Shown piece after piece: positions 24,949-32,163 of a DNA stretch of 64,000 nt (within the stretch, counting starts at the first letter, position 1; each line of letters begins with the position of its first letter). The position numbers were made by a program, and so were the translations under genes. The notes beneath the pieces are model-generated. The model worked only from the letters and a program-made list of their open reading frames with translations. It did not search any database and was not told the origin of the DNA. The stretch comes from Candidatus Krumholzibacteriota bacterium (GTDB lineage: Bacteria; Krumholzibacteriota; Krumholzibacteriia; Krumholzibacteriales; Krumholzibacteriaceae): contig JAFGCX010000034.1 in NCBI GenBank assembly GCA_016932415.1, positions 73,002 to 137,001 of the forward strand, read 5' to 3'.

Positions 24949-25518
24949 ATGATCGTCACCTGCGGCGGATGTCAGACAAAATATATGCTGGGAGATGAAA
25001 AGATCCCGAATAAGGGGATAAGGGTCAGGTGTCCAAAATGCCAGTTCGTCTGGCGGTTGACCCAGGCTGCTCCCGAACCGGTCTTTGAAGTGAGCAGAAG
25101 CAGCTTCGACTCCGAACCGGCAATATCGGAGAGACAGGCAAGTGGTTGGGCGGCAGGTGAAAGCAAGGCTTCAGCTGTCATAGCCGAACCCGAGGTCTCG
25201 GAGATGGAAAAAGAGTTTGTCATCTCGGAGCCTGAGCCTGAAAAGGAACCTGAGCTCAGGGAGACACCCGAACAGCAGAAAAAAAGAGACCGGACTAAAA
25301 GGTTGGCAAGGGTCTTTGTAAGTGATATCCTGATCTACAATCAGGAGAAGCGAGATCACGCTCTCTCGGAGGGGAATCTGATGACAGCTCTCGGGCCGGA
25401 GATTAAAAAAGCCTGGGAAGCGTACAAGGAAAAAGTGGGGACGGATATCGTCGAATCGAATGAGTATTTCCGTAATGCCCTTAATGAGATTCTCGCCGAC
25501 GGGCAGAAAGTATTCTGA
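24949..25518 (+). CDS. Zinc-ribbon (MJ0042-type) protein with acidic linker
   Basis: 189 residues. The N-terminal 40 residues are a MJ0042-type zinc ribbon: CGGCQTKYMLGDEKI, then VRCPKCQFVWRL, with two CxxC pairs. A Glu/Pro-rich disordered stretch (about residues 45-115, with repeats of EPE and KEPE) leads to a C-terminal helical segment (VFVSDILIYNQEKRDHAL...). In other bacteria this ribbon is fused to regulatory or membrane modules; the C-terminal part is unfamiliar to me. Possible scaffolding with the ATPase encoded 8 bases downstream is inferred from the tight spacing. AAGGAG precedes the ATG. Confidence 0.7.
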   Translation: MIVTCGGCQTKYMLGDEKIPNKGIRVRCPKCQFVWRLTQAAPEPVFEVSRSSFDSEPAISERQASGWAAGESKASAVIAEPEVSEMEKEFVISEPEPEKEPELRETPEQQKKRDRTKRLARVFVSDILIYNQEKRDHALSEGNLMTALGPEIKKAWEAYKEKVGTDIVESNEYFRNALNEILADGQKVF

Positions 25519-25526
25519 TTACTGGC

Positions 25527-26351
25527 GTGAATAAAAAATCTTTATATATTCTGAACCTTGCTCCTGATGTTTACTCCAGGTTCTTCAGCGGGGCGGGCCT
25601 GCCTGATGATATCGACGTGAAAGTCTACAAGACTTTCCCCGGTTTTATGAAGGGTTTTCAGGCCCGAACAGAGGATTCACCGAATATAATAATGTTTCTC
25701 CGGCAAGCGAGGTTCGATTGCGCCAAGGCCCGTTCGTTGAGATTATCCGACCTGGATTCGCCGATCTATATCGTATCTGACTCATGTGACGAGAAGACCT
25801 ATCTGATGTACCTTTCGATGGGGATAAACGGTATTATCACGCCTCCATTCAGCAAGGTCGATGTCCACGCGGTACTCAACGGCCGGAGCGAAAGGGAGTT
25901 GCTTTTTCCCCGGAATAACGACCTTATTAAAGAAGGCCAGGTCAGGCTTGATTTTCTCGTTCCAAGCAAACTCTCAAGAATACTTGGTGTAAACCGCCTG
26001 GTCTCCTTTCTCGCCACCGAATTCGGTTTTCCCAGTGAAGAATGCAGAGTCAACCTGCCGATGGTTATGGATGAAGCGCTGAGCAACGCGATCGAACACG
26101 GGAATAACGGAAATGAAGAACTTAAAGTACACGTGCGGATATATATCAGTTCCAGCCGGATCATCATACAGGTTGAAGACCAGGGTGACGGATTCATACC
26201 TGAAAATATAGATGACCCGAGAGACCAGGAAAATATTTACAAGGGGTCAGGCAGAGGTATTTATCTGATCAAAGAGATAATGGACAAGGTCACATTCAGG
26301 AAGGGCGGGCGGCTCATAGAGATCGAAAAGATTAATCCACTCAGCAGTTGA
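25527..26351 (+). CDS. RsbW-like ATPase with degenerate receiver-like N-terminus
   Basis: 274 residues from GTG 25527, with no clear ribosome site. The C-terminal ~140 residues form a GHKL ATPase of the HATPase_c_2 (RsbW/SpoIIAB) type: N-box DEALSNAIEHGN (~residues 185-196), G1 VEDQGDGF and G2 GSGRGIYLIKEIMD. No phospho-histidine (DHp) helix is present, so it is not a classical sensor kinase. The first ~115 residues resemble a response-regulator fold, with no acidic pocket that I can recognise. RsbW-type kinases sequester partners and phosphorylate STAS antagonists. The window has one STAS gene, at 2.5 kb; a functional link is speculation. Confidence 0.7.
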   Translation: MNKKSLYILNLAPDVYSRFFSGAGLPDDIDVKVYKTFPGFMKGFQARTEDSPNIIMFLRQARFDCAKARSLRLSDLDSPIYIVSDSCDEKTYLMYLSMGINGIITPPFSKVDVHAVLNGRSERELLFPRNNDLIKEGQVRLDFLVPSKLSRILGVNRLVSFLATEFGFPSEECRVNLPMVMDEALSNAIEHGNNGNEELKVHVRIYISSSRIIIQVEDQGDGFIPENIDDPRDQENIYKGSGRGIYLIKEIMDKVTFRKGGRLIEIEKINPLSS

Positions 26352-26376
26352 TTCGATCATCGCGCGATCTTCCTAT

Positions 26377-26820
26377 TTACTTTTCTCCCCATTTCTCACG
26401 GGATATCTTGTCAAGAAGGCCGTCGATCTGGTTTTTGATCCTGTCATTCTGGTCAGGTTCGAAAAGGACCTTCTTTATACGGCCGTCTTCGTCTTTTTTT
26501 ACGTATCGAAGAGCTTTTATATTTTCAAGCGGCATAAGGATATCTTTGCTTACCCTGACCTCGATACTCCTGTCATCAAGGTTTTTGTCGTTGCTGTTGA
26601 AGGGGTGCATACCCATGCCCCATCCGTGAACGAACATCGAACATATTATCGCCCGGAAGGTGTTCTGGCGCTGAATCGAATCAAGTTCAAACGTGTCCTG
26701 GAATTTTTCCATCATCCCGTCTATGACGATCTGCAGTTTATTAAGGACCTCTTGTTTCGGTTCTGTATTAAGAAGCCTGTGGAAAACCTCTTTCAGGATT
26801 CTTTCTGTTATTTCCATCAT
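26377..26820 (-). CDS. Hypothetical protein, convergent to the RsbW-like gene
   Basis: 147 residues on the minus strand; ATG 26820 or the adjacent ATG 26817, both behind a GGGGG tract; a TTG at 26832 is also in frame. No family is recognised. Mostly helical, charged, no signal peptide. Visible segments: an N-terminal helix EITERILKEVFHRLL, a central IICSMFVHGWGMGMHPF with clustered Met/Gly/His, and a Lys/Asp-rich C-terminus. Ordinary codon use and the opposite orientation to both neighbours support a real gene, but this is the least certain CDS of the region. Confidence 0.5.
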   Translation of the reverse strand: MMEITERILKEVFHRLLNTEPKQEVLNKLQIVIDGMMEKFQDTFELDSIQRQNTFRAIICSMFVHGWGMGMHPFNSNDKNLDDRSIEVRVSKDILMPLENIKALRYVKKDEDGRIKKVLFEPDQNDRIKNQIDGLLDKISREKWGEK

Positions 26821-27062
26821 ACCCCCAGTCAAGCGCGACTTCCAGAGCGACTACGATTGCCGATGAATTTAAAAACTGTCTGTCAGTCGTAAATATGCAA
26901 AAAGAATACCAATATACGATCTCTCCCCGTTTGCTGCTCCCTTTAGGTCATTGATCATACCGGTGAGGGTCCGTAATCGGCAGTCAAGGAAGGAGCGCCG
27001 ATATGAAAATGGCACAATTCTGGCTTGAATGCGTGTAAGAGATTCATCAGAGGGGAGATATA

Positions 27063-27479
27063 TTGCAGTCTACTATTGAAATCACCATTTTCATGCAAAA
27101 AGCGATATATTACTGCAGCAGATTGATTGCTGCCAGAGGTGTCCTCGAACTTACCGACAGGATGCTTAACTTCGAGGTCTCTTCGCTCGACGCTTCTTTC
27201 GGGATAAAGAATGTCTCCGTAGACCTGACTGACGTGACCGATATCAGGATCGAGGCAGGAGACCTTAATCCGAGAGTAGTCCTCTGCACGGTCGCTAGGA
27301 ATTATGAATTCGTCCTGTCCGGCGGACAGGAACTCTATGACAGGCTCAGGGATCTCGTTGCCACGCCTGGAGAGATAGCTATGAGGAGGGATAGAGCCCT
27401 GTTGACACTGACATGCAATTGCGGCCGGGAGATCGACGCCCATTATAGATTCTGCCCCTGGTGCGGCACGAAATTATGA
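27063..27479 (+). CDS. Small GRAM/PH-like protein with C-terminal zinc ribbon
   Basis: 138 residues from a TTG start behind GGGGAG. Residues ~15-100 alternate beta strands (GVLELTDRMLNFEVSS, VSVDLTDVTDIRIEA, YEFVLSGGQELYDRL) in the manner of GRAM or bacterial PH domains. The C-terminal ~25 residues hold a zinc ribbon, CNCGREIDAHYRFCPWCG, with four cysteines. No signal peptide, so cytosolic or membrane-peripheral. The domain call is by pattern only. It stands alone between an uncharacterised minus-strand gene and a lipoprotein. Confidence 0.55.
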   Translation: MQSTIEITIFMQKAIYYCSRLIAARGVLELTDRMLNFEVSSLDASFGIKNVSVDLTDVTDIRIEAGDLNPRVVLCTVARNYEFVLSGGQELYDRLRDLVATPGEIAMRRDRALLTLTCNCGREIDAHYRFCPWCGTKL

Positions 27480-27507
27480 CCTGCCAGCGAAATATATATT
27501 TTTTCAG

Positions 27508-27536
27508 TTGTTAAAACCTTCCCATTTTATTACATT
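27508..27536 (+). promoter_or_regulatory. Promoter candidate for the small lipoprotein gene
   Basis: TTGTTA (27508-27513), a 17-bp spacer and TACATT (27531-27536). The gene starts about 55 bases downstream behind GGAGG. Moderate consensus match. Confidence 0.45.
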
Positions 27537-27590
27537 CTTCTCAGATGGTTTACCGCCTGTTCCAAAGTTGATAATCGGCAGGAGGTCGTT

Positions 27591-27944
27591 ATGAGGCGGA
27601 TCGTTGGGTCTATATTTACAATAAGTTTAATAATGCTTTTATTTGTACCAGGGTGCAAAGATTCTCAATCTTCAGCCGAAACAGGTTTTGAGCTGTCGAC
27701 GACTAACTGCGTAGCGATAGGTATCCATGTTCATATCGATGACGAATATCAGGGATTGGCATCAGCCGAGCAGCCTCAGTTTTTCGCTCTTCCAGCAGGC
27801 ACTTATCATCTTTACGCGCGCAGCAACGCCAGCACTTCGGTTGTTATCGATCCCTTGTGCTGGTCGATGGAGATCTCGATCTCGGACGGGAATATAACCG
27901 AGGTGGTCCTCGATTGCACCAACACGATTCCGTGTGAGGATTGA
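27591..27944 (+). CDS. Small putative lipoprotein
   Basis: 117 residues. Short basic start, a hydrophobic segment and the box LLFVPGC around residue 22. Proline at -2 is unusual for a lipobox, so processing is likely but not certain. The mature part has four further cysteines (positions ~40, 87, 107, 115 by eye) and beta-strand-like repeats; I recognise no family. It has its own promoter candidate and a strong terminator, so it is probably monocistronic. The context is envelope and signalling genes. Confidence 0.6.
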   Translation: MRRIVGSIFTISLIMLLFVPGCKDSQSSAETGFELSTTNCVAIGIHVHIDDEYQGLASAEQPQFFALPAGTYHLYARSNASTSVVIDPLCWSMEISISDGNITEVVLDCTNTIPCED

Positions 27945-27981
27945 AGCGGAAGAACTCATCGGGCCAATAATCGCAGATTAC

Positions 27982-28017
27982 AAAGCTCTTTCTCAATTTC
28001 AGGGAAAGAGCTTTTTT
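27982..28017 (+). terminator. Intrinsic terminator after the lipoprotein gene
   Basis: An 11-bp perfect stem, AAAGCTCTTTC (27982-27992) with GAAAGAGCTTT (28004-28014), an 11-base loop and a run of six Ts ending at 28017. It isolates the next transcription unit from upstream reading. Confidence 0.9.
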
Positions 28018-28086
28018 ACAAGGTTGCCCTGCAGACGTAAATGCAAGTAATATAACAAGATAAAAAACGATTTGAGGGGAAAAAGG

Positions 28087-28101
28087 TGGCACATTAATTG
28101 C
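28087..28101 (+). promoter_or_regulatory. Sigma-54 (-24/-12) promoter upstream of mglA
   Basis: TGGCAC (28087-28092), a 5-base spacer, then TTGC (28098-28101): an exact match to the core of the RpoN consensus, with GG and GC at the required 12-base distance. With C28101 as -12, transcription begins at 28113. No equally good element was found elsewhere in the intergenic regions. Sigma-54 promoters need an AAA+ activator; two are encoded at 58.8 and 60.8 kb. Confidence 0.75.
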
Positions 28102-28112
28102 GCATGCAGTTG

Positions 28113-28240
28113 ATGTCGGGGTGGATTATTCCTGATTCTAACGAAGTAATAACACCCTAGCTCAAGTGACGTTAGCCTGCTCCGGATTCTGCTTCCTTCG
28201 TCTGTGCATCGAGTGAGTGGGATGGAAGCTGCCCCGACAT
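28113..28240 (+). ncRNA. Candidate structured 5' leader of mglA
   Basis: Outer stem P1: ATGTCGGGG (28113-28121) pairs perfectly with CCCCGACAT (28232-28240), 9 bp. Inside it are two 6-bp perfect stems: CTAACG (28138-28143)/CGTTAG (28170-28175) and GCTTCC (28191-28196)/GGAAGC (28224-28229). The result is a closed three-stem junction. The ribosome site GGAG (28251-28254) lies 10 bases beyond P1. It matches no riboswitch class I know. A competing 5-bp pairing (CGAAG 28142-28146 with CTTCG 28196-28200) hints at alternative folds. Folding was done by eye only. Confidence 0.45.
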
Positions 28241-28263
28241 AAAATTATAAGGAGATCATCAAG

Positions 28264-29388
28264 ATGGCAGTCTATAACTATGCAGGTGGAGAGATCAATG
28301 TCAAGATAGTCTATTATGGCCCGGGAGTAAGCGGGAAAACTACGAATCTTGAACTTATGTATTCGAAACTACCCAGAGAGAACAAGGGAAAGATGGTTTC
28401 GATGAAGACCCGTACTGACAGGACCCTTTTCTTTGATTTTCTTCCGATTGAAATAGGCGATTTCAAGGGGATGAAAGTGCGTTTCCTCCTGTACACGGTA
28501 CCAGGCCAGGTCTACTATAACGCCACCCGGAGACTTGTCCTCAAGGGAGTCGACGCGGTAGTCTTTGTCGCTGATTCTTCTCCAGGCAAGATGGATGAGA
28601 ACATCGAGAGTCTTCATAATCTTGAGGAAAATCTCAACGAGCTTGGAATGTCACTCAGCACGATACCATGGATAATCCAGTACAACAAGCGCGACATCGA
28701 AGGATGCATAAGCAGAGATGTGCTTGATATAGAACTGAACACATGGAACGCCGACGCGATAGAATCAGTAGCCGTGACGGGTCAGGGAGTCTATGAGACT
28801 TTCGAGGGTATAGCAAGAAAAGTCTTTGAATCACTGAAGGATATGCTGAGCGAATCGGAACCGGAAGAAGAACCGGTGGACGAGGAGCCTGAAGATGAAG
28901 ATATCAATGTCGAGATAGTTGCTCAGGGTATATCAAGGAATCAAAGCTCAGGGACGGATGAGAGCGAGTCTTTAGGTTACGCAGAGGAGAGAGAAGAGGA
29001 GCACGAGTCTGTCTCTGAGTTTGTAGAAAATGTCCTCAAGGAAGGCGATCTGCCTGAGAACAGCATAGATCTGGGAGCAACCAGGGGAGGATACGAGGAG
29101 TACGGACACGTCGTGGAACTCGGTGGCACGGGGGCGGAGGGTGAAGCTGAGGAGGCTCCAAAGATGACAGTAGCGGTCGAAGAGAAGAAACCCGACTTTA
29201 TAACCGACCCACTCGATAATCTGTCGGAAAATGGACCCCGGGCGGATTCTGATAGCAGTGACGGTGAAATGCTTATATCGGACGAATCGTTCGAGAAGCT
29301 GGTGACGATTCCAGTCGAGCTGACAGAAGACCAGGTCAGAAACAACATCCCGGTCAAAGTCATTCTCGAGATCAAGGTGACACCCTGA
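28264..29388 (+). CDS. mglA: MglA-family small GTPase with long acidic C-terminal extension
   Basis: 374 residues. The first ~195 are an MglA-type Ras-like GTPase: G1 loop GPGVSGKTTN (G19-N28), G3 TVPGQ (T78-Q82, with T in place of the usual Asp), G4 NKRD (N141-D144). R53 and Q82 fall at the same positions as the catalytic pair known in Myxococcus MglA. MglA sets cell polarity for motility and surface systems. Unusual is the tail of ~180 residues, very rich in Glu/Asp, ending in a more ordered block (LISDESFEKLVTIPVELTEDQV...ILEIKVTP). No MglB (roadblock) partner is encoded nearby. Expression is probably from the sigma-54 promoter at 28087-28101. Confidence 0.88.
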   Translation: MAVYNYAGGEINVKIVYYGPGVSGKTTNLELMYSKLPRENKGKMVSMKTRTDRTLFFDFLPIEIGDFKGMKVRFLLYTVPGQVYYNATRRLVLKGVDAVVFVADSSPGKMDENIESLHNLEENLNELGMSLSTIPWIIQYNKRDIEGCISRDVLDIELNTWNADAIESVAVTGQGVYETFEGIARKVFESLKDMLSESEPEEEPVDEEPEDEDINVEIVAQGISRNQSSGTDESESLGYAEEREEEHESVSEFVENVLKEGDLPENSIDLGATRGGYEEYGHVVELGGTGAEGEAEEAPKMTVAVEEKKPDFITDPLDNLSENGPRADSDSSDGEMLISDESFEKLVTIPVELTEDQVRNNIPVKVILEIKVTP

Positions 29389-29396
29389 TCCGGCGG

Positions 29397-29412
29397 AGAC
29401 CGAGGCCGGTCT
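29397..29412 (+). other. Hairpin right after mglA
   Basis: AGACCG (29397-29402) and CGGTCT (29407-29412) form a 6-bp stem with a 4-base loop, 8 bases after the mglA stop. There is no T-run, so it is not a standard terminator; it could stabilise the mRNA end or assist Rho-dependent termination. Confidence 0.4.
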
Positions 29413-29542
29413 GATATCTCCGTTCAGGCACACTCCCCGCGATTCCCCTCACTTAAATATTCCTTGACCGGCAACCAAAATAAGACGAAGATATATAACG
29501 GGTCCAGTGATGCTGATCCGGAATTTTGCCTGGAGAGGAAGT

Positions 29543-29923
29543 ATGCCTAAAATACTTATTGTCGACGATGAAGCGAATGTCAGAATGCTCTACAGGGAGG
29601 AACTTCAGAATGACGGTTACGAGACTGTTCTGGCAGAGAATATCAGTGAAGCGATAGCTTCTGTCAAGAATGACGCTCCTGATCTTGTCATTCTCGATAT
29701 CAAACTGGACAAAGAAAGTGGAATAGATGCCCTGACAAAGATCATGGAGCAGCGCAAGGACCTGCCGGTGATCCTTAATTCGGCCTATTCAGTGTATAAG
29801 GATAATTTCCAGACATGGGCAGCTGACGCATATATAGTGAAATCAGTCGATCTTGATCCTCTGAAGGAAAAGATCAGGGAACTGCTGGACAGGAAAGCAA
29901 AGACCGGAGAATCAGAGGTTTAG
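29543..29923 (+). CDS. CheY-like single-domain response regulator
   Basis: 126 residues from ATG 29543 with AGAGGAAG upstream; in-frame codons further upstream lack a ribosome site. A complete receiver: acidic pair D8-D9, phospho-acceptor D52 (LVILDIKL), S80 as the switch Ser/Thr, and K100 in the VKS loop. No output domain, so it acts by protein contact, as CheY does. No kinase lies next to it. It follows mglA by 154 bases and is coupled to the outer-membrane-like gene 2 bases downstream. A link to the MglA module is inferred from position. Confidence 0.88.
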   Translation: MPKILIVDDEANVRMLYREELQNDGYETVLAENISEAIASVKNDAPDLVILDIKLDKESGIDALTKIMEQRKDLPVILNSAYSVYKDNFQTWAADAYIVKSVDLDPLKEKIRELLDRKAKTGESEV

Positions 29924-29925
29924 CG

Positions 29926-30357
29926 ATGTCAAGGATCCAGGCGGTCATTTTCATCCTGTTGATCCTGTCAGCCGGTCGTCTGGCCGGGCAGGAACCGGTG
30001 GCCGGGAGTGTATTCGAAGATTATCTCAATCCCTCCACACAGGCACGGTATCTGAATCTTCCCGGGTTGTCGTTCAACAGTTCGATGGGATTCAGTTACT
30101 CATCATACGGTAACGACAGATCTCAGGGATATGGTTACTATATGGGGCACATCAGCTACAGGCTTGGTCCCGACTGGTCGCTTAACTGTGATATCGGCGT
30201 TCGGACAACGATGATGGCTTCGGATGGTATGCGGGAAAGCTCTGAACTGTTTATTCCAAATTTTGACCTTACCTACCGGCCGAGCAGCAAACTTATGATA
30301 AGTTTCCAGTACAGGCAGTACCAGTACCCGGCTGGTTCGAGGTATCTCTTCAGGTGA
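29926..30357 (+). CDS. Exported beta-rich protein, unknown
   Basis: 143 residues. A cleavable signal peptide (MSRIQAVIFILLILSAGRLAG, likely cut near residue 21). The mature part alternates short aromatic-rich strands (SFNSSMGFSYSSYG, GYGYYMGHISYRLGPDWSLN, DLTYRPSSKLMISFQYRQYQY) like a small outer-membrane barrel or a fragment of one. No family name can be given. It begins 2 bases after the receiver gene and ends 50 bases before the next lipoprotein start, so the three are probably co-transcribed. Confidence 0.6.
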   Translation: MSRIQAVIFILLILSAGRLAGQEPVAGSVFEDYLNPSTQARYLNLPGLSFNSSMGFSYSSYGNDRSQGYGYYMGHISYRLGPDWSLNCDIGVRTTMMASDGMRESSELFIPNFDLTYRPSSKLMISFQYRQYQYPAGSRYLFR

Positions 30358-30407
30358 TCCGCCCTGCGTCCGTTTCAGAGAGGAAATCGGTAAAAGGGAT
30401 GATCAAA

Positions 30408-30797
30408 ATGAAAAAAAGACCATTACTCTCGATATGCTCTGCCTTGATATTCATGCTTTTTCTTGCTTCCTGTGGCGATGAACTTACCGAACCGATCTAT
30501 GACGGATACACGCTGCAGGGGACAGTGATCGATGATCTGAGCGGAGAACCTCTTGAAGATGTCGAAGTGCTTACAGGGTGGGAGAGTTCGTTTGAGTTCA
30601 GATCCCACTCCCTGACTGATTCAGAGGGTTGTTTCGTCTTCCATGGGTTTCCGGGAACGATGCCGAGCCGAGAGGTCTTCCGGTTCGAGAAAGAAGGGTA
30701 TCGGCCGAATGAGGTCCCGGCCAGCACGGCGACCAGAAAAGCATCTTTCAGGTATCATCTGCAGGTCCGAATGACCGCCGAAGATGATATCTCCTGA
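30408..30797 (+). CDS. Lipoprotein with carboxypeptidase-regulatory-like (CarboxypepD_reg) domain
   Basis: 129 residues from ATG 30408 (ATG 30399 possible). A textbook lipobox, LFLASC, near residue 22. The mature part begins GDELTEPIYDGYTLQGTVIDD, then GEPLEDVEV and SHSLTDSEGCFVFHGFPG: the beta-sandwich pattern of CarboxypepD_reg domains, common in surface proteins of the Bacteroidetes and related groups. Probably attached to a membrane and facing the periplasm or the outside. It is the third gene of the cheY-like unit. Confidence 0.7.
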   Translation: MKKRPLLSICSALIFMLFLASCGDELTEPIYDGYTLQGTVIDDLSGEPLEDVEVLTGWESSFEFRSHSLTDSEGCFVFHGFPGTMPSREVFRFEKEGYRPNEVPASTATRKASFRYHLQVRMTAEDDIS

Positions 30798-30926
30798 TCT
30801 CCGGAAGGAATCGCGTTCGCTGATGAACGGAGCGAAGTTCCTGCCACAATCGGGAAGCGGGAGCCCGCTCGGCTCGCCGTGCTGATTCGATCTGTTACTA
30901 AACTCTTTACCGCTTCTGGAAATCCC

Positions 30927-30955
30927 TTGACAACAGGCTGTTACTCGGCTAGCCT
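30927..30955 (+). promoter_or_regulatory. Promoter candidate for the TPR-wzi unit
   Basis: A perfect -35 TTGACA (30927-30932), 17-bp spacer and TAGCCT (30950-30955), which matches the -10 at three of six positions. The TPR gene starts 50 bases downstream. The 208-base gap also holds two hairpins (TTCGCT 30816-30821/AGCGAA 30831-30836; AGCGG 30856-30860/CCGCT 30865-30869) without T-runs. Confidence 0.4.
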
Positions 30956-31005
30956 GCCAGCAGGAACAAGTCTTGACGTACTGAATTCCCGAGGGGAGTC
31001 TATAT

Positions 31006-32163
31006 ATGAAATTACGCTGGGACAAGCTGCTTGAATTCACCAGGGGTGAGGTCAAGGAAGAGAGCAGAGAAATAGCCCGGCTGAGAAGAAAGTATGATTC
31101 CGGCGAAGCCGGAGTCGGCGAGATCCTCGAGCTTGCCAGGTATCTTTTTGAAAAAAAGGAAACGAAGATCTCGGAAAGACTGTTAAACGAACTTCTTACT
31201 CATCCCGACATAGATGAACCGGCGTTGTTCGATATATGTTCTCTCTTCGAAAGGGCGGGGAATTATGACGCTGCCTATTGCGGATATGAAAAATATTGCG
31301 AATTGTCAAGCGGCGACGCGATGCCTTTGTACCGCATGGGCAGGCTTCTCGAGATGCAGGGAAAACTCGATGAAGCGATAGACCTGCATAACAGGGCGCT
31401 TGCTCTTGAGCCTGAAAACCCGGAATGCTTCTACAGGCTCGGTGTCGCCTTTACAAAGTGCCGGAATTTTGATGAAGCGGAGAAGAATTACAGAAAAGCC
31501 CTCGAACTCGATCCGACTCATTCGAAGTCATACACAAATCTGGGGTATATACTTGATCTTGGCGGAAGGAGAAACGCAGCCCTTCAGCAGTTCCGTAAGG
31601 CTGTCCAGCATAATCCTAAAAGCGCTGAAGCTCATTTCAATCTTGGAGCCCTTTATGGGGAAGAAGGTGACCGCCAGCAGGCGATCAAGGAATTCCGGAT
31701 CGGACTGGAGATCGATTCCAACTGCATAGAGGGACATTATAATCTGGGAGTGGCTCTTATCAACGAAGGCAGATATGACGATGCCAGAGATGAATTCAAA
31801 AGGATCCTGAAGATAGAAGGTGATAATGTAAACGCTCTCTTTTATCTCGGGTTGATATATTACCGCAAGGGGGTCTACGCGAAGGCTTTGAAATATCTTC
31901 AGCATGCCGTCAGGTTGAACCCTGGAAATTCGACGATTCTTTACTACCTTGGCGAATCGTATAACAAGCTGGAACAGCCCGACAAGGCGCAGGAATATTT
32001 CAAGAGAGTCGCAGAAATAAATCCGGCGGATCAAAGAGTATATTTCAGCATGGGCATTTCCTACGAAAAGCAGGATGACAAGAGGAAAGCAAGGGAATGG
32101 TACCGGATGGCTGAAAATGAAAGATCATTGAAAATGGGGGAGTCACACCGGATAACAGGATGA
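31006..32163 (+). CDS. TPR-repeat protein
   Basis: 385 residues, no signal peptide. At least eight tetratricopeptide repeats of 34 residues between ~residues 95 and 375 with consensus-like units (YRMGRLLEMQGKLDEAIDLHN, FYRLGVAFTKCRNFDEAEKNYRKALELDP cut at various points, HYNLGVALINEGRYDDARDEF). It ends with a short polar tail. A scaffold protein with no enzymatic motif. The stop overlaps the start of the Wzi-like gene in ATGA, so the two are translationally coupled and may assemble the same envelope machine. Confidence 0.8.
   Translation: MKLRWDKLLEFTRGEVKEESREIARLRRKYDSGEAGVGEILELARYLFEKKETKISERLLNELLTHPDIDEPALFDICSLFERAGNYDAAYCGYEKYCELSSGDAMPLYRMGRLLEMQGKLDEAIDLHNRALALEPENPECFYRLGVAFTKCRNFDEAEKNYRKALELDPTHSKSYTNLGYILDLGGRRNAALQQFRKAVQHNPKSAEAHFNLGALYGEEGDRQQAIKEFRIGLEIDSNCIEGHYNLGVALINEGRYDDARDEFKRILKIEGDNVNALFYLGLIYYRKGVYAKALKYLQHAVRLNPGNSTILYYLGESYNKLEQPDKAQEYFKRVAEINPADQRVYFSMGISYEKQDDKRKAREWYRMAENERSLKMGESHRITG

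Follow-up and report, generated by a model that had tools for sequence, protein, structure and literature searches.

A conserved structured RNA almost certainly lies upstream of mglA, which encodes a polarity GTPase, in the 64,000-nucleotide stretch of DNA analyzed here (the window). The best reading of the sequence comparisons is that this leader is a new orphan cis-regulatory RNA, riboswitch-like and belonging to no Rfam family. On this reading, the sigma-54-driven mglA transcript would begin with ~124–126 nt of structured leader RNA belonging to a new cis-regulatory family. The leader has one feature expected of a riboswitch: it is a structured 5′ UTR that is conserved ahead of its gene.

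Sigma-54 promoters start transcription 12 nt past the −12 GC and require an enhancer-binding protein. A promoter of this type, TGGCACATTAATTGC, occupies positions 28087–28101 of the forward strand; it has the −24 GG and −12 GC elements at fixed spacing and gives a predicted transcript start at 28113. This agrees with the original prediction that the sigma-54 start coincides with the start of an RNA stem. The genome contains an rpoN gene, and a genome-wide count returned 26 sigma-54-type sites versus 3 for the reversed control pattern. Across the family and the order, the site is positioned ~165–185 bp upstream of the mglA ATG. Genes behind other sigma-54 sites in this genome (L101, L107, L110, L111, L106) encode REC-GGDEF, GAF-GGDEF, PilM, type IV pilin, and MCP-like proteins, which suggests a sigma-54 surface-motility regulon. 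Farther upstream, ~70–110 bp before the mglA promoter, is a terminator-like hairpin (AAAGCTCTTTCTC...GGGAAAGAGCTTTTTT, 27975–28020), with a conserved GCAGNTTACA on its 5′ side in many relatives. This hairpin may do no more than terminate the upstream lipoprotein-like gene, or it may also serve as an activator site.

The leader is enclosed by a stem. It had been described as 9 bp formed by ATGTCGGGG (28113–28121) and CCCCGACAT (28232–28240), and we find it at exactly these positions. Relatives do not keep its two outermost A-U pairs, and the conserved closing stem, P1, consists of a 5′ arm at 28115–28124 and a 3′ arm at 28229–28238, both read on the forward strand. Among 26 sequences from four families, 96% of P1 cells are paired and 6 of the 10 pairs show compensatory types, so the check proposed at the outset, for conservation and compensating changes in this stem, came out in its favor. 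This count includes four distant sequences whose arms were aligned manually; for L085 and L089, a single inserted base per sequence was excluded from the arms. Sliding the arms reduced the paired fraction to 36–54%. Two changes stand out most: L022 has CG in place of GC at a pair that is invariant elsewhere, and L025 has a P1 of 13 bp. In a tree-preserving simulation, 0 of 600 replicates reached the paired fraction of P1 or that of P3, an inner helix described below. Under this phylogeny-preserving null, the covariation score was significant for P1 (p = 0.03) and not for P3. When all column pairs were compared, covariation was strongest between columns 12/125, at the inner end of P1 (E = 0.12), a value obtained from 22 sequences with limited power. 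An alternative to P1, GGGGUG/CACCC, was rejected, as it is lost where the 5′ arm changes (L072, L082).

P1 is also constrained in position: it begins between +2 and +5 in 24 of 24 leaders measured, leaving 1–4 unpaired nucleotides at the 5′ end. The coincidence of stem and transcript start had been considered hard to put down to chance, and indeed a perfect stem of at least 9 bp starting at +1 to +5 arose in only 0.15% of dinucleotide shuffles of the UTR. The Shine-Dalgarno sequence AAGGAG (28249–28254, forward strand) follows 10 nt past P1, as had also been predicted, and precedes the ATG at 28264.

We searched 80 genomes of the phylum with a covariance model, R1, and found copies in 21: 19 of the 20 genomes of the family and two in the sister family. 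The single family member lacking a copy is 61% complete. Each genome, including that of the window, has one copy, apart from one MAG with copies on two contigs, both upstream of mglA; every copy found sits upstream of this gene. Between the window and eight relatives, leader identity is 76–92%, compared to 76–82% for the start of the coding sequence. The flanks are less conserved (38–77% for the spacer before the leader, 43–69% for the spacer after it, and 57–71% for upstream DNA). The leader is therefore as conserved as the mglA coding sequence, and conservation stops at the P1 arms. Family members share a sigma-54 site, a G[CU]CGGGG arm at +2 to +5, a leader of ~118–131 nt ending in CCCCG[GA]C or a close variant, and a Shine-Dalgarno sequence. 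Since leader lengths differ by non-multiples of three across relatives, the leader is not coding. A leader peptide starting from the ATG at 28113 was likewise rejected, with neither start codon nor frame kept and lengths shifting by 1–2 nt. In three sequences from families f7 and f8 (L023, L025, L028), a sigma-54 site, a P1-like stem, and a CUCACCCUGGCC-like block are present upstream of a distant mglA, with a shorter, diverged interior. These leaders are likely homologous and beyond the reach of the model.

Within P1, alignments reveal a conserved, apparently unpaired block, AACACCCTAGCTCAAGTGACG (28151–28171, forward strand), which reads AACACCCUAGCUCAAGUGACG as RNA. Its 15-mer core, ACACCCTAGCTCAAG, occurs with 0–1 mismatch at 15 sites in 78 genomes, and 14 of these 15 sites are in mglA leaders. 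The preceding region (28125–28150) is variable; a hairpin considered there, P2, was rejected (mean folding z +0.3, 22 sequences). On the 3′ side of the block, CCTGCTC (28176–28182) and GAGTGGG (28215–28221) form the 7-bp stem P3, with the family form CCUGCUC/GAGYGGG. In alignment A3, 98% of P3 cells are paired, with one-sided changes only. P4 connects the P3 loop, through GCTTCC (28191–28196), with GGAAGC in the segment 3′ of P3 (28224–28229); C28229 is common to P4 and the inner end of P1, and all four arms are on the forward strand. The cognate GCUUCC/GGAAGC arms pair better than non-cognate ones (p = 0.03), and 0 of 300 shuffles did as well. Judging from these pairings, P3 and P4 probably interleave as a pseudoknot. 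An unconstrained search for interleaved helices recovered both in about half of the family. The sister-family leader L087 has the same interleaved architecture in other sequence (CUCCG/CGGAG and GCUUC/GAAGC), and one clade (L076, L080, L083, L081, L082) has P4 in a shifted register (e.g., AGGAUG/CAUUCU, AGACU/GGUCU).

This interior differs in part from the original prediction. Of the inner features, the stem at 28191–28196/28224–28229 is supported; a second hairpin is not conserved. Instead of a three-stem junction, we find a closing stem with a probable pseudoknot and a poorly structured variable 5′ region. The competing pairing put forward as a switch (28142–28146 with 28196–28200) is present in the window and gone in the nearest relative (CGAAA versus ATTCG). 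Single-sequence folding of the leader was no better than that of shuffled sequences (z = 0.05), and the evidence for structure is consequently comparative rather than thermodynamic.

The absence of any recognized riboswitch class, noted at the outset from sequence inspection, held at permissive thresholds as well. None of the 4227 models of Rfam 15 matched the window at the gathering cutoff, and at E ≤ 10 only chance matches to hsp17 and ceN47 appeared. The hsp17 thermometer match is weak and sub-threshold (15.8 bits against a cutoff of 45) and begins 3′ of the Shine-Dalgarno sequence. Nothing was detected over the leaders of ten relatives at E ≤ 1, and the Rfam models of c-di-GMP and cGAMP riboswitches gave no match at any threshold applied. 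In the literature searched, nothing relevant was found for mglA with riboswitch or leader RNA, and its papers on large RNA-discovery surveys do not mention this gene.

The window derives from Candidatus Krumholzibacteriota, and records of that name show near-identical gene order; its genes were assigned by domain only. The gene behind the leader (28264–29388, forward strand) encodes a 374-aa protein with an MglA domain at residues 1–192 and a C-terminal extension, and matches Pfam Arf. Its assignment as a polarity GTPase is upheld by homology to solved MglA chains over the GTPase domain (PDB MglA, E 2.7e-64). The extension (28840–29388) comprises ~180 aa and is acidic. A second MglA in the same genome (G000:C34:3939-4511) is 203 aa long and has neither such an extension nor such a leader. 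Downstream of mglA on the forward strand are two conserved neighbors, a response regulator receiver (29507–29923) and a TPR protein (31006–32163). Over 24949–32163 the gene order HATPase (RsbW-like), zinc-ribbon protein, lipoprotein-like, mglA, receiver, small protein, TPR is kept in the order.

On balance, we lean towards a riboswitch-like cis-regulatory leader that acts on mglA translation. The conserved unpaired block and the pseudoknot could form a binding site for a signal, whether small molecule or protein, and folding of P1 and the pseudoknot would set the accessibility of the mglA ribosome site. No U-run terminator was found 3′ of P1, and P1 ends ~10 nt from the Shine-Dalgarno sequence, which together make translation the likely target. 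The predicted accessibility of the Shine-Dalgarno sequence (mean of 19 species, with partners that differ between species) is 0.61 in the full leader and drops to 0.43 without the P1 5′ arm; based on this decrease, our guess is that formation of P1 would turn translation on. No single alternative pairing that blocks the Shine-Dalgarno sequence is conserved among the species compared. The loop GCUUCC was rejected as an anti-Shine-Dalgarno element: it is complementary, but this complementarity shows no cognate specificity (p = 0.45) and exceeds that of shuffled loops by only ~2 SD. Such RNA control would be layered over sigma-54 control of the putative surface-motility regulon. This reading has weaknesses: the one-sided changes in P3, the moved P4 register in about five genomes of one clade, and a transcript start that is predicted. 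Across the 80 phylum genomes and mglA relatives, the element is so far confined to one phylum and one gene, fewer than most riboswitch classes. A more specific proposal, that a new riboswitch class so far found only in Krumholzibacteriota senses a surface-lifestyle signal and sets MglA translation, is possible but rather doubtful. A cyclic dinucleotide would be a natural ligand candidate, as sigma-54 sites in this genome also precede diguanylate cyclase genes.

Small-molecule riboswitches usually recur upstream of several genes. The single location of this element contrasts with that pattern, and its occurrence once per genome, only upstream of mglA, resembles that of autoregulated operons. 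Both features favor a leader bound by a regulator that recognizes the conserved block or pseudoknot and represses or activates translation, possibly an autogenous control by a product of the mglA neighborhood. However, the mglA and receiver proteins tested yielded no RNA-binding domain, no candidate binder emerged, and we consider this explanation unlikely. Even less probable is that P1 acts as a constitutive cap, a 5′-terminal stem that shields the mRNA from 5′-end-dependent decay and does not switch. The 1–4 unpaired nucleotides in all leaders measured would fit such a role, given that 5′ pyrophosphohydrolases require unpaired 5′ ends. The commonest case, three unpaired nucleotides, nonetheless suffices for RppH, which in B. 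subtilis requires at least two (PMC3997798), and a cap would account for neither the unpaired block that is conserved nor the P3/P4 sequences.

Two further explanations seem highly improbable to us. A processed trans-acting small RNA or an RNA thermometer, located in the leader by chance, would be compatible with a discrete structured unit beginning at the transcript 5′ end, but neither a terminator nor a U-run lies past P1, the Shine-Dalgarno sequence is predicted to be mostly open, and the sole thermometer match is the weak hsp17 hit past that sequence. Conservation at the DNA level, with protein-binding sites downstream of the sigma-54 promoter and an incidental stem, has an equally slim chance of being correct. 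It would agree with blocks conserved in sequence and with the weak formal covariation over all pairs in 22 sequences, but it is opposed by P1 pairing kept through compensatory changes across four families, by the fixed distance of P1 to the start, and by the end of conservation at the P1 arms.

The leader is a well-bounded conserved RNA of no known family, placed where it could set how much of a front-rear polarity GTPase is made. Should it sense a ligand, this would be a surface-movement signal in a phylum represented here by metagenome assemblies alone. The leader is open to in vitro study without culturing the organism. We know of no earlier RNA-level control of a bacterial polarity switch; a riboswitch on mglA, if true, would to our knowledge be the first.

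Several known systems resemble parts of this arrangement. The Myxococcus MglA/RomR/SgmX module (PMC3441718, PMC7519303) is partly alike: in M. xanthus, MglA and the TPR protein SgmX stimulate type IV pili (PMC7519303), and here an MglA GTPase has a response regulator and a TPR protein nearby, assigned at the domain level. It differs in that RNA leader control of mglA was not found in the literature searched. The c-di-GMP-I, c-di-GMP-II, and cGAMP (GEMM) riboswitches are linked to the leader by motility biology, two GGDEF genes sharing the sigma-54 sites of this genome, and riboswitch-controlled pili have a precedent in C. difficile, where c-di-GMP-II riboswitches regulate a type IV pilus cluster (PMC11477304); the leader, however, matches none of their Rfam models. 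With translational riboswitches in general, it has in common a closing stem, conserved unpaired nucleotides, a pseudoknot, a site just 5′ of the Shine-Dalgarno sequence, and no terminator, but it differs from them in having no known ligand, no defined alternative that sequesters the Shine-Dalgarno sequence, a single gene, and no Rfam sequence match. Finally, the stabilizing stem of the ompA 5′ UTR is also located near the 5′ end and leaves few unpaired nucleotides, whereas the stem of the mglA leader encloses a ~124-nt domain with conserved internal sequence.
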